64,000 bases of DNA from Jeotgalibaca dankookensis (GCF_002005405.1 NZ_CP019728.1:1054001-1118000), one strand, 5' to 3'; shown: positions 22,829 to 33,492, counted from the stretch's first letter. Notes: generated by a model not told the origin, from the sequence alone. Numbers and translations are program-made.

Positions 22829-22844
22829 ATGAGAGGTGAATGAA

Positions 22845-23207
22845 ATGACTGAAGTCTGCCAAACGACGATCATACATCCTGAAAAAGTAGATGTAGTAAA
22901 AAATAAATTAGAAAATAAAAATTTATCGAATTTACTTGTGTTGGGGAAATGTTTTAGCGACCCTTCAAGGATTAAAATTTTCTATGCTTTAGAAACCTTC
23001 AAAGAAATGTGTGTCTGTGATTTAGCGGAGATCTTAGACGCTAGTATTGCCACGACGTCACACCATTTGCGCTATTTAAAAAAGCAAGGTGTGGCGAAAT
23101 CACGTAAAGACGGAAAAGAAGTCTACTACTCGTTAGCGAATAAAGAAATCCTTTCGACTATTCGTATAGTTTTAGACATGCCAAACAGCTTATCTTTGAC
23201 GTCTTAG
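22845..23207 (+). CDS. cadC: CadC-type ArsR-family metal-responsive repressor
   Basis: About 120 residues from ATG 22845 (GAGAGGTG 6 nt upstream; the frame also opens at a GTG at 22836). TEVCQTTIIHPEKVDVVKNKL is the CadC N-terminal arm with its Cys, and MCVCDLAEIL the paired Cys in the winged helix: together the Cd(II)/Pb(II) site of CadC. SIATTSHHLRYLKKQGV is the recognition helix. It should release the two operators at 22759-22828 when Cd, Pb or Zn binds, turning on itself, cadD and cadA. Confidence 0.93.
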   Translation: MTEVCQTTIIHPEKVDVVKNKLENKNLSNLLVLGKCFSDPSRIKIFYALETFKEMCVCDLAEILDASIATTSHHLRYLKKQGVAKSRKDGKEVYYSLANKEILSTIRIVLDMPNSLSLTS

Positions 23208-23223
23208 TTTGGAGGAGAATATT

Positions 23224-23835
23224 TTGTTACAAACTATTTTTTCAGCAATTGCTGTGTATATTTCGACCAGCATCGATTATTTATTTATCTTACTGATTAT
23301 TTTCTCGCAAGCCTATACACAAAAAGGACTTCGTCAGATTTATTTCGGGCAATATCTTGGAACCGGCATTTTAGTAGCCATTAGTTTATTTGCTGCTTAT
23401 GTGCTGAATTTTATCCCCCAAGATTGGATGATCGGACTTTTGGGACTCATTCCTATCTATTTAGGTATCCGAGTTGCTATGGGAAGCGAAGAAGAAGCAG
23501 AAGAAGAGGAAGTCGTGGAGAAGTTAGAGTCCAGAGGGTCCAACCGTTTGTTTTGGACTGTTGCTTTAATTACGATCGCTTCCGGTGGAGATAATTTAGG
23601 GATTTATATTCCTTATTTTACCTCTCTATCTGTTTCTGAAATAGTCATTGCTATAGTCGTTTTTGCTCTATCGATTGCGGTGCTTTGCTATATCAGTTAT
23701 CGATTGGCAAAAATTTCGTTTGTCTCTGAAACATTGGAAAAGTATGAACGAATTATTGTACCGATTGTCTTTATCGGTTTAGGAATCTTTATTATGCTAG
23801 AAAACGGGACCATTCAAACACTATTCGGTTTATAA
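23224..23835 (+). CDS. cadD: CadD-family cadmium resistance transporter
   Basis: About 203 residues from TTG 23224, with GGAGGAG 6 nt before; the earlier TTG at 23209 would overlap this ribosome site. About six membrane segments; IYISTSIDYLFIL-type start (VYISTSIDYLFILL), FGQYLGTG, and SGGDNLGIYIPYF match CadD. An acidic loop (EEEAEEEEVVE) lies in the middle. It exports Cd(II). It begins 16 nt after cadC and precedes the P-type ATPase cadA, so the three form one operon. Confidence 0.92.
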   Translation: MLQTIFSAIAVYISTSIDYLFILLIIFSQAYTQKGLRQIYFGQYLGTGILVAISLFAAYVLNFIPQDWMIGLLGLIPIYLGIRVAMGSEEEAEEEEVVEKLESRGSNRLFWTVALITIASGGDNLGIYIPYFTSLSVSEIVIAIVVFALSIAVLCYISYRLAKISFVSETLEKYERIIVPIVFIGLGIFIMLENGTIQTLFGL

Positions 23836-23861
23836 GGCTCGTATGTGAAAGGAAGAAAACG

Positions 23862-26312
23862 ATGAGCGAAAAGAAGAAATCGCATCAGTGGCTCCTGGAA
23901 GGAATTGACTGCGCCAATTGTGCTGCTAAAGTGGAGCGAGGGGTGGCTTCCATTCCTGGCGTCACTGAAAGCAATGTGAATTTCATGACAGAAACCTTGA
24001 GGTTTGAGGTTGCTGATGATCAAGAAAACTTAATCTTAGTCAATATACAAGAAAAAATTAACAAGTTGGAACCCGACGTGACTTTAAAAAACAAAGCAGA
24101 TGGGCAATTGATTAACATGAACCCAGCAATTGTTTTGGAAAGTCATTCCAAAGAAGATGAGGAAAGCCATCATGAATGGCTATTAGAGGGAATTGATTGC
24201 GCCAATTGTGCTGCAAAGATTGAGAATGGCGTGGCTGAAATAGATGGAGTCATAAATAGTAACGTGAATTACATGACCCAGACATTAAGCTTTGATCTTG
24301 TGGCAGAAAATGACGCTAAAACTCTTTCTTCGGTTAAAACTAAAATTAAAAAACTAGAACCTGATATCATCCCTCTTATAAAAGCTACAGGTCAGGAAGT
24401 TGGAGAAGACAGGGGTCTCCAGTCAGAAAAATCGGGTCAGAAACAGAATCACAAAAGACCAGAAAATTTGGGAATTAATTTAACCATCGGTCGCTTAATC
24501 CTTGCCGTTTCAGTGCTTTTACTGGCAAGTTTTGCCCCCATTACCCCTTCCCTTTCCTTTGGTTTGTTTGTGGTCGCTTACCTTGTGGCCGGTTATGATG
24601 TGATTTGGCGAGCCGTTCGAAATATCTTTAATGGCCAAGTCTTTGATGAAAACTTTTTGATGACGATTGCGACACTTGCTGCCTTCTATGTGCAAGAATA
24701 TCCCGAAGCAGTAGCCGTTATGCTTTTCTATCAAGTGGGCGAAGTTTTTCAAGATGTGGCCGTAAACAAATCACGTCGCTCTATCGCAGACTTGATGGAT
24801 ATTCGTCCGGATTACGCCAATATAAAGTTAGCCGATGGCAGTACACGCCAAGTTTCACCAGAATCGATTAAAGTCGGCGATACCATTCTCGTACGTCCAG
24901 GCGAAAAAGTGCCCTTAGACGGGAAAGTGGTCGGCGGTTCTTCCGCTATGGATACGTCTGCTTTAACCGGTGAGTCAATGCCCCGAAGTGTTAAAGAAGG
25001 TGACGACGTTTTAAGTGGTTTTATCAACAAAAGCGGCTTGCTAGAAGTCGTGGTTGAAAAGCCCTTCTCAGAGTCAACCGTGACAAAAATTCTCGAGCTG
25101 GTTGAGAATGCAAGCAGTCGTAAAGCACCAACCGAACAATTCATTACAAAGTTTGCTCGTTACTATACGCCGATTGTGGTCATTTTAGCGGTCTTATTAG
25201 CTGTTCTTTTACCCTTGACTATTCCTGGAATGACGTTTAACGATGGTGTTTACCGGGCAGCTATTTTCCTTGTTATTTCATGTCCTTGTGCCTTAGTTGT
25301 TTCAATTCCTGTCGGTTTCTTTGGCGGAATTGGTGCTTCTTCACGTAAAGGTATCTTAGTGAAAGGCGGCAACTTCTTAGAAGGCTTAAACTATGTCAAA
25401 TATGTCATTATGGATAAGACGGGTACCTTAACCAAAGGGGAATTTGAAATAACCGATATTCAATCGACACCAGAATTCAATAATGAAGAACTCTTAGAAC
25501 TAGCCGCTTATGCGGAAACCCATTCTTCACACCCGATTGCGGTTTCTATCAAAGAACATTACGGGAAAGAGATTGATGAACGACGAATTGATGAATACAA
25601 TGATCTCTCAGGCCATGGTGTTCAAGCGGTTGTTGATGGCAAAGAGATATTAGCCGGAAATGCTAAATTAATGGCTAAATATGGTATTCCTTTTAAAGAA
25701 GTAGAAGAAGTCGGAACGGTTGTCTATTTAGCGATTGAGGGAGCCTATGCTGGTTACCTTCTAATTGCCGATACGATTAAAGATGACGCTGCAGAAGGCA
25801 TTGCCTTAATGAAAGAAAAAGGCGTCGAACACATTATCATGCTTACAGGCGATTCAAAAGCGGTGGCCGAAGCTGTTGGGAATAAATTAGGGATCGATGA
25901 AATCCACTCGGAACTTCTTCCGCAAGACAAAGTGGAGAAAATGGAAGAAATTATGGCGCGCAAAAATAAAAAAGATAAAGTCGTTTTTGTGGGCGATGGT
26001 ATCAACGATACGCCCGTACTGGCCCGTTCAGATATCGGGATTGCGATGGGTGGCTTAGGATCAGACGCAGCCATTGAAGCGGCGGATATCGTGATTATGG
26101 ACGACAAGCCGTCTAAAATTGGAACGGCCATGCAAGTGGCCAAAGATACTCGCCAAATTGTCTGGCAAAATATCATTCTCGCACTAGCCATCAAAGGGGT
26201 ATTTTTGGTTTTAGGTGCTTTTGGTGTCGCTTCGATGTGGGAAGCAGTCTTTGCAGATGTTGGTGTAACGGTTATTGCTGTATTGAACGCCATGCGTGTT
26301 TTGAGAAAATAA
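23862..26312 (+). CDS. cadA: CadA cadmium/zinc/lead P1B-type ATPase with two HMA domains
   Basis: 816 residues. Two heavy-metal domains each carry EGIDCANCAAK (Cys17/Cys20 and about residues 115-118), where many CadA have one. Then the P-type core: TGES, ISCPCALVVSIPVG (CPC metal site), MDKTGTLTKGE (phosphorylated Asp), SSHPIAVS (HP), MLTGDSKAV and VGDGINDTPVLA. CPC plus cadC/cadD as neighbours indicates Cd(II), Zn(II) or Pb(II) export. GAAAGGAAG precedes the ATG. The gene looks richer in G and C than its neighbours (impression only), which suits separate transfer. Confidence 0.95.
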   Translation: MSEKKKSHQWLLEGIDCANCAAKVERGVASIPGVTESNVNFMTETLRFEVADDQENLILVNIQEKINKLEPDVTLKNKADGQLINMNPAIVLESHSKEDEESHHEWLLEGIDCANCAAKIENGVAEIDGVINSNVNYMTQTLSFDLVAENDAKTLSSVKTKIKKLEPDIIPLIKATGQEVGEDRGLQSEKSGQKQNHKRPENLGINLTIGRLILAVSVLLLASFAPITPSLSFGLFVVAYLVAGYDVIWRAVRNIFNGQVFDENFLMTIATLAAFYVQEYPEAVAVMLFYQVGEVFQDVAVNKSRRSIADLMDIRPDYANIKLADGSTRQVSPESIKVGDTILVRPGEKVPLDGKVVGGSSAMDTSALTGESMPRSVKEGDDVLSGFINKSGLLEVVVEKPFSESTVTKILELVENASSRKAPTEQFITKFARYYTPIVVILAVLLAVLLPLTIPGMTFNDGVYRAAIFLVISCPCALVVSIPVGFFGGIGASSRKGILVKGGNFLEGLNYVKYVIMDKTGTLTKGEFEITDIQSTPEFNNEELLELAAYAETHSSHPIAVSIKEHYGKEIDERRIDEYNDLSGHGVQAVVDGKEILAGNAKLMAKYGIPFKEVEEVGTVVYLAIEGAYAGYLLIADTIKDDAAEGIALMKEKGVEHIIMLTGDSKAVAEAVGNKLGIDEIHSELLPQDKVEKMEEIMARKNKKDKVVFVGDGINDTPVLARSDIGIAMGGLGSDAAIEAADIVIMDDKPSKIGTAMQVAKDTRQIVWQNIILALAIKGVFLVLGAFGVASMWEAVFADVGVTVIAVLNAMRVLRK

Positions 26313-26523: not shown

Positions 26524-27078
26524 TTAGTCTTCCTCTTCATCGTGGTAATCATCATCTTCTAGGGCTTCTTTTCCTAAAAAGGCTTGCAACATCCAGATTT
26601 TTGTATCTAAGTCATCTTTAAATTCAATTAGCGTATCCTCAAAGACAACATTCTCTTCTTCTTGCGCCAAGTGAATGGCACGAATCGTTAATTCACGAGT
26701 TTCTCTGAAATCATCGATGATATTGTCAACCATTTCTTCGGCTTTTATATATTTATCTGCTGGATCTTCTGATAGCATAGAATACTCGACAAGCTCTTTG
26801 GTTGTAGAAGCTGGTTTATATCCTGAAGCTAGCAGTTGTTCAGCTAAACGGTCAAACCATTTTTCATTATCATCATATAGTTCCTCAAATTTTTCATGTA
26901 AAGTAAAGAAGTGAGGTCCCTTTACATACCAATGATACTGATGTAACTTCACATGTAGTGTGTGAATATTCCCTAAAAGATGGTCTGTAATGGCTGCTGC
27001 ATTTATTTTCGTATGATGCACATGATCTTTATATTCTTGTTCTTCTTTTAATCTTTCTTGTGGTGTTTTTTCTGACAT
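26524..27078 (-). CDS. dps: Dps-family ferritin-like protein
   Basis: 184 residues. LHVKLHQYHWYVKGPHFFTLHEKFEELYDD is interrupted only by my limit: HQYHWYVKG and FFTLHEKFEELYDD give the intersubunit ferroxidase His, Asp and Glu of Dps. A long acidic tail (EALEDDDYHDEEED) ends it. Dps oxidises Fe(II) with H2O2 and shields DNA. GGAGG precedes the ATG. It starts 40 bp after the HMA chaperone gene (27119-27349), so both probably share the FNR-type promoter at 27421-27462. Confidence 0.92.
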   Translation of the reverse strand: MSEKTPQERLKEEQEYKDHVHHTKINAAAITDHLLGNIHTLHVKLHQYHWYVKGPHFFTLHEKFEELYDDNEKWFDRLAEQLLASGYKPASTTKELVEYSMLSEDPADKYIKAEEMVDNIIDDFRETRELTIRAIHLAQEEENVVFEDTLIEFKDDLDTKIWMLQAFLGKEALEDDDYHDEEED

Positions 27079-27118: not shown

Positions 27119-27349
27119 CTACGCGGCTTTTACACGCGATCTTTTTACGCCATAACCTAAGTCTTGGATAGCTTTTTCTATGTCTTCAATTGATACAGTG
27201 TCGTCGAAGTTTACTTTTACGCGGCTTGCATTGAACATCACTTTTAAGCTGTCTTTATCCACACCGTTTAAGTTACCAACACCATTTTCGATTTTTTGTA
27301 GACATGATGGACAAGTTAACGTTTCTAATTGAATATTTGCTTTTTGCAT
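27119..27349 (-). CDS. HMA-domain metal chaperone (CopZ-like), copy 1
   Basis: 76 residues, one HMA domain. LETLTCPSCLQKIE has the metal-binding CPSC (Cys13, Cys16); the usual motif in CopZ is MxCxxC. It pairs with the near relative at 31165-31377, which shares QLExLxCPSCxQKI. It likely passes Cu(I) or another soft metal to the nearby ATPase, which has no HMA domain of its own. GGAG before the ATG. Metal not certain. Confidence 0.85.
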   Translation of the reverse strand: MQKANIQLETLTCPSCLQKIENGVGNLNGVDKDSLKVMFNASRVKVNFDDTVSIEDIEKAIQDLGYGVKRSRVKAA

Positions 27350-27420: not shown

Positions 27421-27462
27421 AGTATATTAGCTATTCAAGCTTTTAATCTTGATCTACATCAA
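27421..27462 (-). promoter_or_regulatory. FNR-type promoter P1 for HMA copy 1 and dps
   Basis: TTGATCTACATCAA (27449-27462) matches the Fnr consensus TTGAT-N4-ATCAA exactly. On the minus strand 22 nt later is TATACT (27421-27426). This is the geometry of a class II activator site centred near -42. It gives a leader of about 65 nt before the ATG at 27349. Confidence 0.8.
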
Positions 27463-27463
27463 T

Positions 27464-27496
27464 TTAACGAGGTATTTTGTATTTCAATATTTTCAT
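27464..27496 (-). CDS. Possible 10-codon ORF behind promoter P2
   Basis: MKILKYKIPR-stop, with AGAGG 6-7 nt before the ATG, about 14 nt after the expected start site of promoter P2. It ends just before the P1 site. It may be a leader peptide or the stub of a lost gene. Only spacing and the ribosome site support it. Confidence 0.3.
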   Translation of the reverse strand: MKILKYKIPR

Positions 27497-27516
27497 TTCT
27501 TACCTCTTATGCATCT

Positions 27517-27558
27517 ATTCTAATCGAAGACTAGATAGATTGAATTGATGTAGATCAA
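27517..27558 (-). promoter_or_regulatory. FNR-type promoter P2
   Basis: TTGATGTAGATCAA (27545-27558), 22 nt, TAGAAT (27517-27522) on the minus strand: same geometry as P1. It lies 96 bp upstream of P1 and has only a 10-codon ORF directly after it. The 303-bp gap 27350-27652 holds P1, P2 and this ORF; otherwise nothing is seen. Confidence 0.7.
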
Positions 27559-27652
27559 GAATTAGTATTAATCTCCTAATTGTTTCTGAAATTTGTTCGA
27601 TTATATTATATTGGAAATTCTACCGTAATCTATTTAGTTTTTATTGTATTTT

Positions 27653-29554
27653 TTATGCATGAACCTCTTTTGCGTTCGCCGTTTCTACATCAGTTCCTTT
27701 GAGTCTGTAGCGCAATAGTCTCATACCGTTTAAGATAACGACTAGGATACTTCCTTCGTGTACTAACATACCAATTGACATGTTCATCCAGTCTGAGAAG
27801 AAAACGGCTGCTAGAAGAACAAGTACAGTACCTACTGCAATGACAATATTTTGTTTCATATTATTGGCGGTTGCTTTAGTTAAGCCTAAAGCGTGAGGCA
27901 AGCGGCTCATATTTGAGTTCATTAAAACGACATCAGAAGTTTCAATAGCGACGTCTGTTCCGCTACCCATTGCGATTCCAATATCCGCAAGGGCTAATGA
28001 AGGACTATCGTTTACTCCATCACCAACGAATGCGACAATTTGACCCTGAGCTTGGAGTTCTTTGAGGTAGTCTGCCTTATCTTCTGGCAGTAAGTTTCCA
28101 TGGGCTTCTGTTAATCCTAATTCTTCAGCGACTAAATCAACAGTACCTTGGTTATCTCCTGATAGTACGATTAAGTTCTTAACACCTAAAGCTTTCATCG
28201 CTTGTAAATCTTGTTTAATCCCTGGGCGAATTTGGTCACGAATCCCCATTAGAGCTTTCAACTCACCATCGACTACTGTAATAACTAATGAGTTTCCACC
28301 TTTTTCGTAGGCTTCAAAATCTTCACGAGCTTCTTTTGTTAATTGGATATTTTCTTTTTCCATTAAAGCTACGTTTCCTATTGCAACGCGGTGGCCATCG
28401 ACTTCTGCGACGATTCCTCCACCTTTTACAACGTTTGTTTCATCTACTGGATACATTTCAATATCGCCTAACTGTGAAAGAACCGCTTTTGCGAGTGGGT
28501 GATCCGATTCATTCTCGACACTTGCCAGATAGCTTAGTGCTTGATCTGCATCCCCATAGGTTTTAAATTCGGCAACTTCTGGGTTACCTACAGTTAGAGT
28601 TCCTGTTTTATCAAATAGAATCGTATCAACTTTACTAAAGTCTTGAATTACTTCTGAACCTTTTAATAATACACCATTTTTTGCACCATTTCCGATACCA
28701 GCTACGTTAGAAACAGGTACTCCAATGACTAATGCACCTGGGCATCCGAGTACTAGTATTGTAATGGCCAACTCGACATTTTGACTAAAAATCCACACGA
28801 TAAACGCTAAGACTAAGACGGCTGGTGTATACCACTGCGAGAACTGGTCAATAAAGCGTTCAGCTTCTGATTTTGAATCTTGAGCTTCTTCAACAAGCTC
28901 AATAATTTTACCGAAAGTTGTATCTTCTCCTACACGGTCTGCACGAATTTGTAGGGTTCCATTTTCTAAAATTGTACCTGCGAAGACTTCTGAATCTGTT
29001 TCTTTTCGAACCGGATCCGCTTCACCAGTGATTGATGCTTCGTTAATGTGACCTTCACCAATAACAACCGTTCCATCAACTGGAACTTTTCCACCTGTAC
29101 GGACTTGTAGGATATCGCCTTCGTCAACATCCCATACATCAACTTCTTCAAATTCACCATTTTCCATTTGTTTAAAAGCTACTTCTGGTGCCATTTCTGT
29201 CAATTCTTTAATCGCTGAACGAGTAGAGTTCAATGTGCGAGCCTCTAACCAGCTACCGAATAAGAATAAGAACGTTACGATAGCTGACTCTTCATAGTTT
29301 TGAATGAGGAAAGCACCGATTACTGCGATGGTTACTAACACATCAATTGAAATTACTTTTACCTTTAAAGCCCCAAAAGCTTGAATGGCGATTGGTGCCA
29401 CCCCTAAAATAGATGCGATAATGAATGCGATATTAAAAACTTGTGTGTTTCCAAAACCAAAGTGTGCAATAAATCCTATAACGATTAAAATTCGGCTCTT
29501 TGTCAAGAAGTGTTGATAGTGTATTTTTACGATTGAATGAAGTTTAAAATTCAC
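27653..29554 (-). CDS. P1B-type metal ATPase with CPG motif, 5' end replaced by ISL3 element
   Basis: 633 residues as it stands, but the first 20 codons or so come from the IS end. Core motifs: TGEADPV, VLGCPGALVIGVPVSN (CPG where P1B ATPases have CPC or a variant), LFDKTGTLTVG, SDHPLAKAV (HP), LSGDNQGT and VGDGVNDSPSLA. There is no HMA domain; two separate HMA proteins lie on either side. The original start is the ATG at 31075, and without the IS the gene reads as 631 residues. The current frame opens at GTG 29554 with no ribosome site, so expression is doubtful. Likely soft-metal export; metal unknown. Confidence 0.85.
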   Translation of the reverse strand: MNFKLHSIVKIHYQHFLTKSRILIVIGFIAHFGFGNTQVFNIAFIIASILGVAPIAIQAFGALKVKVISIDVLVTIAVIGAFLIQNYEESAIVTFLFLFGSWLEARTLNSTRSAIKELTEMAPEVAFKQMENGEFEEVDVWDVDEGDILQVRTGGKVPVDGTVVIGEGHINEASITGEADPVRKETDSEVFAGTILENGTLQIRADRVGEDTTFGKIIELVEEAQDSKSEAERFIDQFSQWYTPAVLVLAFIVWIFSQNVELAITILVLGCPGALVIGVPVSNVAGIGNGAKNGVLLKGSEVIQDFSKVDTILFDKTGTLTVGNPEVAEFKTYGDADQALSYLASVENESDHPLAKAVLSQLGDIEMYPVDETNVVKGGGIVAEVDGHRVAIGNVALMEKENIQLTKEAREDFEAYEKGGNSLVITVVDGELKALMGIRDQIRPGIKQDLQAMKALGVKNLIVLSGDNQGTVDLVAEELGLTEAHGNLLPEDKADYLKELQAQGQIVAFVGDGVNDSPSLALADIGIAMGSGTDVAIETSDVVLMNSNMSRLPHALGLTKATANNMKQNIVIAVGTVLVLLAAVFFSDWMNMSIGMLVHEGSILVVILNGMRLLRYRLKGTDVETANAKEVHA

Positions 29555-31012
29555 AATCTATGAAGCAGTAGCTGGGAACCGAACGGTTCCTAAGCTGCTG
29601 TTTTTATTTCTAGCAATTTATATTCTATAAAGATGCGGTTACGGAAATTAGAAAAGTTACGATAACCATAGGCTGCCCGCTTAATAACCTTGATTTTGTT
29701 ATTGATTCCTTCCACTAAGCCGTTCGAGTAATCATAGTTCAGTGCGTTGATAATTGCTTTTTCGGATTGACGGAATGTCTTCAAAGCCTGGTCCATTTTG
29801 ACCGTCAGCCCCTGTTGTTTTTCATGAACGAAAGAGCTGAACAGCTTTGGTTTCCGGTGATTAACCGTGAAGATGATGGTTTGGTAGGCGTTATAATTAA
29901 GGCGCAACCCCTCGTCCAAAGAGAGGAGATAGTCAATGATTCCCCTCTCCGTCACGAGACCCTTAAAAAGCCGGTGATAACGGTATTCGGTGCTATTCAA
30001 TGTCTCTTCCTTTTTCAGGATTAATTTCCAGTATTTTTTCAGCTTCCTGTAATCTCGATTAGCCTTTAAGTCTTTCGATTTCTTCAGGGTATTCATAAAA
30101 CTGACACGTGCCATATTGAGAGCTCGGTTCACCTGTGTGACAATGTGAAAACGATCAATGATCAACTCTGCCTGAGGAAAGAGGGCCTGAAACAGTTTTT
30201 GATAAGGACCGTAAAGGTCTACTACCACCGTCTTGACCTTCGCTCGTTGTTCTTGTGGAAAACGCATAAAGTAATCCATGATTGATTTGTTACGGCGATC
30301 TTCAAGAATATCAAAAATTTTCTTGTTGTCGGAATCACAAATAATCAGGCTCATTGCCCCCTCAGCGCTTTTTACGCTCTTAAATTCATCAATCGCCAAG
30401 TTCTCAGGAAGATGGGTATAGACTTGGCGGAATGTATCATAAAAATCTCCAAAAACCCTTTTGACGGTGTTATTGGAAACACGGTGTTCAAGCGCAAGAT
30501 CCTTTTCAGATATGTTCCTCGTCCCTTGGACGGCGATAGAACGCTTCACATCATTCGTGATATGGCAACGTTTTTTTACGATACACGTTTCCGCAATAAA
30601 CGTTTGACCACATTCCCGGCATAAGAATCGTTGTTTCTTCAGTTCCAAGTAGGTGGGACATCCCGCCATATCGAGGAGTAGAGGATGAGTCAGTTTTGTC
30701 CCATTTTTGACTATCGATCCCTCATTTACGCAGCCGCAGCACTTACAAGCCTCTGGTGTATAGGTCAGCTTGGCGGAGATGATTTTGCAATGCAGGCCAT
30801 TTCTAACTTCTTCCTTCAGCCAATCCTTATCCATCACTTTAATATTTTTATCTTTTATTCCTAGCAGATTTAATATAGAATGTTTATGAGACAAATGAAT
30901 TTCCTCCCTAAAATAAAGACTCGATACCTTCATTTTAACGGAAAAATTCATTTGTCTCTTTGTGTTTTCACAAAAGGGCCATGGGCCCATCAACACTTAA
31001 TATTCTAGAACC
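29494..31012. mobile_element. ISL3-family insertion sequence
   Basis: 1519 bp, ending at inverted repeats GGCTCT...AAGTGTTGATAG (left) and, reversed, GGTTCT...AAGTGTTGATGG (right). The 8-bp direct repeat TAAAATTC flanks it on both sides (29486-29493 and 31013-31020), the normal ISL3 target duplication. It carries one transposase gene. It is inserted after codon 21 of the ATPase gene. Confidence 0.95.
29590..30894 (-). CDS. ISL3-family transposase
   Basis: About 434 residues. I choose TTG 30894 (SHKHSILNLLGIKDKNI), which has GGGAGG 8 nt before; the open frame runs upstream to 30996 without family likeness. N-terminal zinc fingers (CKCCGC; CRECGQTF), then a helix-turn-helix (NISEKDLALEHRVSNNTVKRV), then the DDE domain with NLAIDEFKSVK, VVVDLYGPYQKLFQALFP, IIDRFHIVTQVNRA, and SNGLVEGINNKIKVIKRAAYG. 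No break seen, so it may be active. Confidence 0.93.
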   Translation of the reverse strand: MSHKHSILNLLGIKDKNIKVMDKDWLKEEVRNGLHCKIISAKLTYTPEACKCCGCVNEGSIVKNGTKLTHPLLLDMAGCPTYLELKKQRFLCRECGQTFIAETCIVKKRCHITNDVKRSIAVQGTRNISEKDLALEHRVSNNTVKRVFGDFYDTFRQVYTHLPENLAIDEFKSVKSAEGAMSLIICDSDNKKIFDILEDRRNKSIMDYFMRFPQEQRAKVKTVVVDLYGPYQKLFQALFPQAELIIDRFHIVTQVNRALNMARVSFMNTLKKSKDLKANRDYRKLKKYWKLILKKEETLNSTEYRYHRLFKGLVTERGIIDYLLSLDEGLRLNYNAYQTIIFTVNHRKPKLFSSFVHEKQQGLTVKMDQALKTFRQSEKAIINALNYDYSNGLVEGINNKIKVIKRAAYGYRNFSNFRNRIFIEYKLLEIKTAA

Positions 31013-31075
31013 TAAAATTCCTGAGATAAGTGTGATTTTATTTTTACTGCTTAATATTTTTTGCTGAAAACCCAT
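31013..31075 (-). pseudogene. Detached 5' end of the P1B ATPase gene
   Basis: From ATG 31075 (AGGAGGAG 6-7 nt before) it reads MGFQQKILSSKNKITLISGIL. With one copy of the 8-bp repeat removed, it joins in frame to IVIGFIAHFGFG in the gene left of the IS. So this is the true start, cut off by the ISL3 element. It would make a short peptide running into the IS. Confidence 0.9.
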
Positions 31076-31164
31076 TTCTTTCTCCTCCTAGTTTGTACTT
31101 GTTGACTACAGTATACCCTGCGCTTTTTCATTTAAAATTGACCCCAATCAACTTTCATACGTTA

Positions 31165-31377
31165 TTATATTTTCTTTGCTGAATATCCAATCTCTTCAAT
31201 CTTATGAAGAATTTCTTCCTCTGATATTTTATTGTCTTCAAATACTACTCTTGCTTTGCTTCTATCAAATAAAATTTTTATTGTTTCTATCCCCGTTAAT
31301 TCATTTACATTGTCTATGATTTTTTGCATACAAGATGGACAGTTCAATTTTTCTAATTGAAACGTTATCGTCGTCAT
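31165..31377 (-). CDS. HMA-domain metal chaperone, copy 2
   Basis: 70 residues. FQLEKLNCPSCMQKIIDNV gives the CPSC metal site (Cys13, Cys16). One complete HMA fold, ending GYSAKKI. 89 bp upstream of the native ATPase start, same strand, so it was probably co-transcribed with the ATPase before the IS came in. A close relative lies at 27119-27349, on the other side of the ATPase gene. Expression from promoter P3. Confidence 0.85.
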   Translation of the reverse strand: MTTITFQLEKLNCPSCMQKIIDNVNELTGIETIKILFDRSKARVVFEDNKISEEEILHKIEEIGYSAKKI

Positions 31378-31432
31378 CTTCTCTCTCCTTTATTTTTTTA
31401 GTCATTACTCTGAATGTTTTGATTACACAGTT

Positions 31433-31474
31433 AGTATAGACCGAATATTTTGTTTGCGAATTGATTTATATCAA
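31433..31474 (-). promoter_or_regulatory. FNR-type promoter P3 for HMA copy 2 and ATPase
   Basis: TTGATTTATATCAA (31461-31474), 22 nt, TATACT (31433-31438) on the minus strand. The hexamer and spacing equal those of P1. Leader of about 50 nt to the ATG at 31377. Confidence 0.8.
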
Positions 31475-31541
31475 TCTTTTACATTCATTTAAACATTCGA
31501 ATAAAAAATCACTATCCGTTAAGATAGCGACTCTTTTTCTT

Positions 31542-31853
31542 TTATGCACCATGTTCATCTTGTAGAATCTCAAGTTTTTGAAGGACAGTATCTATACTAT
31601 TGGGATCTAAATTCGAATCATCAAATTCCGCTCCATGCCCTTGAATCAGCATATTTAATTTCGGCTGCAAGCCAGTAATATCATGCGCTGCTTCTGGTAT
31701 CTCACAGTTATGCGCGACTAACAAAGCGTCTGCTTTTTCGTGAAAAGTATCTAAAGAGTCTAAAGCCATATTAGAATCATCAAATGTTACACCATGGTCT
31801 TCCAGTAAAAAATTTAATTTTCTATTTATGTCATTTGCTATATTTTTGTCCAT
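31542..31853 (-). CDS. Small internally duplicated protein, unknown function
   Basis: 103 residues, no family recognised. Two similar halves: LNFLLEDHGVTFDDSNMALDSLD (first) and LNMLIQGHGAEFDDSNLDPNSID (second), each followed by a helix. The repeated H-G-x-x-F-D-D-S-N is the most conserved part and could bind metal. Acidic, soluble. It has its own FNR-type promoter (P4). GGAGGATTTATAGAA precedes the ATG. Its neighbours point to metal or redox stress. Confidence 0.75.
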   Translation of the reverse strand: MDKNIANDINRKLNFLLEDHGVTFDDSNMALDSLDTFHEKADALLVAHNCEIPEAAHDITGLQPKLNMLIQGHGAEFDDSNLDPNSIDTVLQKLEILQDEHGA

Positions 31854-31893
31854 TTCTATAAATCCTCCGCATTTGTATTTTTGTTACATCTAC

Positions 31894-31935
31894 AGTCTAC
31901 AAGAGATAACCGCTGTAATAATTGATGCGTATCAA
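31894..31935 (-). promoter_or_regulatory. FNR-type promoter P4
   Basis: TTGATGCGTATCAA (31922-31935), 22 nt, TAGACT (31894-31899) on the minus strand. Leader of about 34 nt to the ATG at 31853. Fourth site with the same geometry. Confidence 0.75.
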
Positions 31936-31999: not shown

Positions 32000-32605
32000 T
32001 TGAATATAACTAAAGATACAATGGCTGAAAATTTAGATGTAAACGGATATACGTACTTTAGGATATTATCGTACAGCGGTGCTCGAAAATCAGAAATACT
32101 AGCTCTTAAATGGTCGGATATTGATTTTGATACATCTACACTCAACATTAGTAAAACACTTACTAGGGGCTTAAATAATAAGATTATCATGCAACCTACG
32201 AAGACGGTGAACGGTCGAAGAGTGATTGATATGGATTATGACTCTATGAAGCTTTTAAAGCTGTGGAAGATGTATCAGGCTCAATTCATGCTGAAACTTG
32301 GATTTAATACCAATACACACGATCAGAATGCTTTTGCGAATACTAGAAATAATTTCTATTCAATTAATGTTTCCAATGACCGTATGAGAAATGTGCAAAA
32401 GCGTAATGGTCTTAAATAAATTACAGTTCATGGGTTACGACACACGTATAGTAGTATCCTCTTCTCTATGGGAGCTTCAATAAAAGATGTACAGGCTCGC
32501 CTAGGACACACAGATATTCAAACAACAATGAACATCTATGCTCATGTTACAAAAGAAGAGAAGAAGGACACAGCAGATAAGTTTGCGAAGTTTATGGAGC
32601 ATTAA
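32000..32605 (+). pseudogene. Tyrosine integrase 3' part with an in-frame stop (copy 2)
   Basis: The frame lacks the N-terminal arm-binding and core-binding domains and opens at MAENLDVNGYTYFRILSYSG. It has SGARKSEILALKW (catalytic Arg), a TAA at 32417-32419 where copy 1 has GAA, then HGLRHTYSS and LGHTDIQTTMNIYAHV (His, Arg, His, Tyr). It ends KFAKFMEH. Very like the fragment at 4694-5031. It lies about 520 bp from ssrA, the usual place for an integrase of a ssrA-targeting island. One base change would restore the last part, but the 5' end is missing. Confidence 0.9.
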
Positions 32606-32642
32606 TGACTAGTTATAAAATATTAAATAAAGGAGACGTCTT

Positions 32643-32858
32643 ATGGACTTGATACAACGAGCAATAGAGCTCAGATGGCCTGTATTACTATTCGAACTTA
32701 TTTTTTTAATTGGGGGAATTTTGCTTATAGTTAGCGGAAGAAAAATACGTAAACAAAGCAAAATCTCATCCTTACTCAATATGATTATAGGTTTAGTAAT
32801 TGCACTGGTTTCGATATACACTTTGTATTGGACAATTATGCTTGGTTATAATTCTTAA
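32643..32858 (+). CDS. Small two-span membrane protein, unknown
   Basis: 71 residues: MDLIQRAIELRWPVLLFELI, two hydrophobic segments (about 12-33 and 43-67) joined by a basic loop (SGRKIRKQSKIS). AAAGGAG lies 8 nt before the ATG. It stands between the integrase remnant and ssrA, so it is part of the island. No family recognised. Confidence 0.5.
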   Translation: MDLIQRAIELRWPVLLFELIFLIGGILLIVSGRKIRKQSKISSLLNMIIGLVIALVSIYTLYWTIMLGYNS

Positions 32859-33128: not shown

Positions 33129-33492
33129 TGGAGGTGAGGGGAGTTGAACCCCTGTCCAAACATATCGGCACTTCCAAATCTACGCTCATAGTTAAATTAT
33201 TTAGTTTTCGCCAGATGCTAGCCATTTAACCGGCATCACAACAAGCTAATCTGATTAGTCTCTTCCGATTCCTCCAGATGGAAAGTCACGGCGTAGTCCA
33301 CTGATTATGGGACCCTTACTTGAGCACATGGACGATGCCAAGAGGATCTTAGCTAGCTGTTATTAAGCAGCGAAAGCTAAAGTATTATTGTTTGTTTTGT
33401 CAGTTATATTTAACTGTAACGTTTTAACGTAGACGTAACCTACGGAGCGCATCAAAAGCTCGACCTATGCCTGTCGAATCCGTAACACCCCC
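33129..33492 (-). ncRNA. ssrA: tmRNA (transfer-messenger RNA)
   Basis: The 5' end GGGGGTGTTACGGATTCGAC and 3' end GTTCAACTCCCCTCACCTCC-A pair as an acceptor stem (GGGGGTG with CACCTCC) with a tRNA-like T arm; CCA is not encoded. Length about 364 nt. The tag frame is DKTNNNTLAFAA followed by TAA (33363-33401); the codon just before is ACT, not the usual GCN Ala, so the tag starts with Thr or Asp. tmRNA with SmpB frees stalled ribosomes. Its partner smpB and RNase R lie about 3 kb downstream. The 3' end is the attachment site of the island. Confidence 0.96.

Follow-up and report, generated by a model that had tools for sequence, protein, structure and literature searches.

The closest described relatives of the regulator considered here are L. 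casei FLP, L. lactis FlpA and FlpB and S. suis FlpS, likened to it by features: they too are FNR-like, have few cysteines and come from Lactobacillales. Among them, S. suis FlpS controls arcABC, whose expression was unaltered in a C129S variant, a result that warns against presuming cysteine control (PMC5039431), and RegPrecise lists the FlpA regulon under metal homeostasis (PMC3616900). On the side of the targets, metal-efflux ATPases take part in oxidative-stress defence in the PerR- or Fur-controlled iron efflux systems PmtA, PfeT and FrvA (PMC7012047, PMC9993123), and P1B-4 ATPases are defined by an SPC motif in M4 and HEGxT in M6 (PMC8880997, PMC7012047).

The window analysed here, a stretch of 64,000 nucleotides from the Jeotgalibaca dankookensis genome, holds a metal/Dps locus whose features are collected in Table 1. 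Sequence comparison makes it highly probable that its genes belong to a small, mobile set for metal export and iron/peroxide protection, under the control of a Crp/Fnr-type class II activator. This regulator is called FLP for its FNR-like features and its distribution in the Lactobacillales, and not for orthology to the named Flp proteins.

Table 1. Features of the probable regulon in the window and its regulator gene (window coordinates unless a contig is given; L and a number denote compared loci)
Feature	Coordinates	Strand	Details
HMA1-dps promoter 1 (FLP-type)	27517..27558	(-)	site 27545-27558, N22, TAGAAT 27517-27522; also in loci L181, L184, L185
HMA1-dps promoter 2 (FLP-type)	27421..27462	(-)	site 27449-27462, N22, TATACT 27421-27426
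HMA2 promoter (FLP-type)	31433..31474	(-)	site 31461-31474, N22, TATACT 31433-31438
P103 promoter (FLP-type)	31894..31935	(-)	site 31922-31935, N22, TAGACT 31894-31899; same in L181, L182, L184, L190
Fifth promoter (FLP-type), directly before ATPase	31110..31151	(-)	TTGATTGGGGTCAA 31138-31151, N22, TATACT 31110-31115; kept in L181, L182, L184, L185
Dps-type ferritin-like protein	26524..27078	(-)	PF00210 E 4.5e-26, 91.9 bits vs cut-off 24.5
HMA1, metallochaperone-like, CPSC motif	27119..27349	(-)	PF00403 E 3.9e-11
10-codon ORF MKILKYKIPR, between the two HMA1-dps promoters	27464..27496	(-)	
CPG-type P1B ATPase, remainder	27653..29493	(-)	TIGR01525 E 2.3e-166; CPG motif
ISL3-family element inside ATPase gene	29494..31012	(-)	transposase 29590-30996; 8-bp target repeats TAAAATTC
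CPG-type P1B ATPase, first 21 codons, cut off by the element	31013..31075	(-)	flank comparison
HMA2, second CPSC HMA-domain protein	31165..31377	(-)	PF00403 E 1.3e-11
P103, duplicated His-containing protein	31542..31853	(-)	predicted four-helix
FLP, Crp/Fnr-type regulator, 234 residues	G000:C1:1171789-1172490		~53 kb past window end

Promoters of a Single Geometry

A first-pass annotation of the window had described four copies of TTGAT-N4-ATCAA, at 27449, 27545, 31461 and 31922, each followed on the minus strand, after 22 nt, by TATACT, TAGAAT, TATACT and TAGACT, respectively; both the positions and the spacing prove exact. Such palindromes are observed 4 times in the window against 0.30 expected, and that number was reached in 0 of 100 dinucleotide shuffles. 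The second promoter of HMA1-dps lies 96 bp downstream of the first. The same annotation saw no further copy and overlooked a fifth promoter, in which one half-site is degenerate and which surfaces, with the same N22-TATACT arrangement, when the search is relaxed to TTGAYN4RTCAA; the ATPase gene that it precedes starts at 31075. With the hexamer as a -10 element that occupies -12 to -7, the site would extend from -48 to -35 and be centred at -41.5, which is the class II position.

Whole-genome pattern searches (2.1 Mb) returned eight matches to TTGAYN4RTCAA-N22-TANNNT and none to the reversed control. Five of them are the promoters of the window, and a sixth is the 31922 palindrome read, weakly, in the divergent direction; the remaining two are outside sites (C1:1169076 and C1:1169768), ~84-88 kb from those of the window. 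All eight fall in two loci, one of them adjoining the FLP gene. Exact palindromes number 26 genome-wide, mostly outside the window, and TANANT stands at N22 in only six, namely the window's four and the two beside the Crp/Fnr gene, with no such hexamer at that distance from the other 20 on either strand. Random recurrence of the spacing across the genome had been named beforehand as grounds for rejecting the regulon, and on this test the scan did not refute the regulon.

Related Lactobacillales loci were fetched via FLP or via the promoter pattern. Across them, a TATAAT-like hexamer lies at N22 in 77 distinct sites, and none of the other gaps between 8 and 39 occurs in more than 5; the promoter-chosen loci inflate this peak, and its weight rests on the FLP-chosen loci and on degenerate TTGAC/GTCAA sites, which played no part in the selection. 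In a larger set, the hexamer follows at N22 in 85 of 215 sites, as against 0 of 29 with swapped halves, 0 of 2 reversed and 7 of 1621 single half-sites. These 85 promoters look activator-dependent, since TTGACA is matched at 4 of 6 positions in seven of them and better in none, and TGn occurs in just six. Among 295 Lactobacillales genomes, the strict promoter is present in 90 of the 115 with FLP, called at the arbitrary threshold of E<=1e-35, and in 8 of the 180 without it (odds ratio 77, Fisher p 2e-42, kinship being ignored); the counter-cases are thus 25 genomes with an FLP-like protein and no strict promoter, and 8 with the promoter and no FLP. A chance origin of the sites is ruled out by the controls on the window, the genome and the 295 genomes.

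Two arrangements of these promoters may be mentioned here. In L127 and L128, a single palindrome between divergent FLP and ATPase genes has N22-TATACT on both strands, and tandem copies 89-123 bp apart precede different regulon genes in L119, L126, L129, L131, L143 and L145.

The Regulator FLP

The window holds no Crp/Fnr-type gene; the first-pass annotation had stated that no regulator gene is present there, and the search that it proposed for a Crp/Fnr/Flp gene elsewhere in the genome led to one ~53 kb beyond the window end, beside two more copies of the promoter. FLP consists of a cNMP-binding domain (PF00027, E 2.5e-24) and a Crp-type HTH (PF13545, E 1.3e-17), and it is the sole PF00027 protein of the genome. 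A second HTH match (1895858) was rejected as a Crp-type regulator, because its sequence looks GntR-type and PF00027 matches FLP only; a scan of genome contigs with FLP as query found only distant relatives. At this second locus, an HMA protein and the 97-residue P97 lie behind one of the outside sites, and an intact P1B ATPase gene, convergent to the FLP gene, lies behind the other. FLP is likewise found beside HMA, the same ATPase, P97 and/or Dps genes in most of the fetched Lactobacillales loci, where most operons carry the site.

Residues E200, S203 and R204 of the recognition helix are conserved in at least 95% of homologues and align with the E..SR of FNR. Two cysteines, C18 and C116, are invariant in 37 of 37 homologues, the former aligning with the last N-terminal cysteine of A. 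fischeri FNR and the latter with its core cysteine, whereas the other two cluster cysteines of FNR have no counterparts in FLP. The tail before C18 is 19% His, compared with 2% in the rest of the protein.

Probable Target Genes

Both HMA proteins bear the C-P-S-C motif, which is conserved in 56 HMA homologues, and HMA1 scores below the CopZ cut-offs (50.6 vs 91; for TIGR00003, 61.1 vs 62). P103 has no match in a Pfam/NCBIfam profile search; its predicted structure (pLDDT 91) comprises helices at residues 3-19, 34-47, 59-72 and 87-101, a search of PDB structures with this model gave no match, and homologues exist on Corynebacterium plasmids. P97 is best described as a shortened RIC-like protein on a weak profile match: it reaches 41.7 bits with the RIC/ScdA/YtfE profile, below the cut-off of 204.7, ending soon after the matched stretch, and its predicted fold is closest to S. 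aureus RIC (9r7j; probability 1.0 and TM 0.83, but E 0.007). In two structure predictions, input rows from plasmid records were left out. HMA proteins usually imply copper, and Dps, RIC and FetB imply iron. With Dps, the RIC-like fold of P97 and fetB on plasmids all bearing on iron, gene content suggests that the common theme is a redox-active metal, iron foremost, and the HMA proteins would allow for copper or other soft metals.

The first-pass annotation had also named a second HMA protein together with a P1B ATPase as targets. Both are present, but the ATPase gene is split after codon ~21 by an element with the transposase (NF033550, 315 bits vs a cut-off of 180), the inverted ends and the 8-bp target duplication of the ISL3 family. 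Joined without the element, as in an empty site, the flanks form one open frame, and near-identical loci that lack it occur in L181, L184 and L185, of which L184 carries all five promoters. The regulon is probably still functional in this strain, since the second locus retains an uninterrupted ATPase gene next to that of FLP. The protein is a P1B heavy-metal ATPase by family score (TIGR01525, 555 bits vs a cut-off of 346), and its M4 motif reads LGCPGALVIG in nearly all members of the clade, also on Corynebacterium plasmids. To judge from these motifs, P1B-4 is not the right class for it, because CPG replaces SPC in M4 and HEGSI replaces HEGxT in M6. A second, canonical P1B-4 ATPase (SPC, HEGST) is encoded near the regulon in genomes and plasmids, at L159 45-1928, L145 2631-4427 and L182 13793-15589.

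For the 10-codon ORF, which had likewise been counted among the targets, comparison gives no backing: it has a good Shine-Dalgarno sequence and start, is unchanged in near-identical copies only and is absent in L182.

Mobility and Distribution

The window locus shares 95-99% DNA identity with loci in another family of Lactobacillales. Together with an integrase remnant that adjoins the tmRNA gene (window 32000-32606 and 33129-33492, a frame of 139 residues that continues beyond a stop), this identity suggests an island at ssrA. An ArsR-type regulator, CadD and a double-HMA CadA-type ATPase adjoin the regulon (window 22836-26312, plus strand); the CadA-containing segment probably travels with it, as the CadA part is 97% DNA-identical in L181. 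On the other side, positions 32643-32858 of the window (plus strand) encode a small membrane protein that matches DUF308 weakly, and a DUF308 protein also occurs in a Tetragenococcus plasmid cassette (L161). In one genome (G194:C1), the promoter cassette recurs at 813186, 886309 and 959432, each 73123 bp apart, as if a 73-kb unit had been tandemly triplicated.

The cassette reaches well beyond this locus. It is found with the same promoters on the plasmid pPIR00540, and fetB stands beside it on Listeria and Enterococcus plasmids. Corynebacterium marinum has a Crp/Fnr gene, HMA, P103 and the CPG ATPase with TTGATCCAGGTCAA-N22-TATCTT, and judging from such sequences the module crosses phyla. The Corynebacterium plasmids L163 and L180 carry HMA, P103 and the CPG ATPase with TTGATC..GGTCAA-N22-TATCTT, to which L180 adds a Crp/Fnr gene and CueP.

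A Model of the Regulon and Its Alternatives

The five window sites and the two ~84-88 kb away would be the operators of FLP, a dimer of which would bind TTGAYN4RTCAA centred at -41.5, take the place of the absent -35 element and contact RNA polymerase as in class II activation. FLP would thereby switch on the HMA chaperone-like proteins, the CPG-type P1B exporter and Dps, along with the RIC-like P97 and the four-helix P103. More likely than a four-cysteine iron-sulfur cluster as the sensor is the invariant C18/C116 pair, which would become oxidised or bind metal, and the His-rich tail would probably take part. The output would be both export and sequestration of a redox-active metal, for which ferrous iron and copper-like soft metals, singly or together, are the best candidates, and hence protection from peroxide. 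A small Crp/Fnr-controlled regulon of class II geometry that ties metal export to Dps had been proposed at the outset, and the spacing, the genome scan and the regulator gene all back it.

The overlap of the site with the -35 position could fit a repressor that covers this region until released by metal or oxidant; such a role is very improbable, as there is no -35 hexamer for basal transcription (0 of 85 above 4/6) and a fixed 22-nt spacing is demanded by contact with RNA polymerase, not by repression. Still less credible is a leader-peptide attenuator upstream of HMA1-dps, formed by the 10-codon ORF and the two promoters that flank it: the ORF has its good translation signals, and other genes too are preceded by tandem sites spaced 89-123 bp, yet the leaders between tandem sites are unrelated across the other loci and mostly lack a short ORF with start signals, and L182 has neither tandem nor ORF. 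That the repeated promoters are functionless copies left by duplication or transposition of the cassette would suit a mobile locus in which some sites are near-identical between genomes. We give this account practically no credence, since half-sites, spacing and hexamer are kept while spacers and the four central bases vary, both among the window sites and across families, and since the presence of the promoter tracks that of the regulator gene.

If FLP is an activator, the question of its signal follows, and here the FNR-style oxygen sensing of the first-pass annotation fares less well. An iron-sulfur cluster sensor of the FNR kind would agree with the FNR-type recognition helix and DNA site, with the presence of A. 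fischeri FNR among the best named PDB relatives, with the response of S. suis FlpS to oxygen (PMC5039431) and with the report, as cited in that paper, that L. lactis FlpA holds its cluster partly via non-cysteine residues. It is nonetheless improbable, because only C18 and C116 are invariant and two of the four cluster ligands are absent, the tail is His-rich, and the targets belong to metal and peroxide defence and not to anaerobic metabolism. From the two retained cysteines and the His-rich tail, we infer a disulfide or metal switch in place of a four-cysteine cluster; a signal from thiols or a metal is no less likely than oxygen, and we moderately favour it. A more far-reaching version, possible though short of probable, would make FLP a direct metal-sensing (or metal/thiol) activator that works through its tail and two cysteines and is dedicated to a mobile detoxification cassette, the ATPase an unclassified CPG/HEGSI subclass with a cargo of its own, and P103 and the shortened RIC new metal-binding helical proteins.

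Comparison with Known Systems

In the literature searched, with most subscription papers out of reach, no account was found of an FNR-Dps-ATPase regulon, of the promoter geometry or of the CPG-type P1B clade, and nothing direct on the identity of HprA1, an iron-binding L. casei protein to which P97 or P103 might correspond. For Lactobacillales, the RegPrecise FlpA regulon nevertheless foreshadows a metal regulon under an FNR-like protein (PMC3616900), and the cassette has been seen in plasmid annotation: the segment of pLM58-type Listeria plasmids is the same (ABC transporter, Dps, Crp/Fnr, copper chaperone, P-type ATPase) and is visible as automatic annotation in a study whose topic is ClpL and which, in the parts consulted, does not describe the cassette regulon (PMC5663981). 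The regulon outlined here would give a precise set of targets to the FNR-like regulators of lactic acid bacteria, in which the nature of the signal has never become clear, place metal export and iron/DNA protection under one activator, and supply a control logic for a Listeria/Enterococcus plasmid cassette so far annotated merely as copper transport. It also draws attention to a clade of P1B ATPases whose metal site is unusual.

With FNR of E. coli and A. fischeri, FLP has in common the fold, the E..SR helix, the TTGAT-N4-ATCAA site and the presumed -41.5 position, whereas it differs in having two and not four cluster cysteines, a His-rich N-terminus and targets in metal and peroxide defence, the last also in contrast to the arcABC target of S. 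suis FlpS. The nearest solved relative of the ATPase (~606 residues) is the P1B-4 protein sCoaT (PDB 7qbz), in comparison with which it has CPG for SPC in M4 and HEGSI for HEGST in M6. Finally, the logic of a metal-efflux ATPase in oxidative-stress defence is that of PmtA, PfeT and FrvA, but here the regulator belongs to another family and the ATPase has CPG/HEGSI instead of SPC/HEGST.
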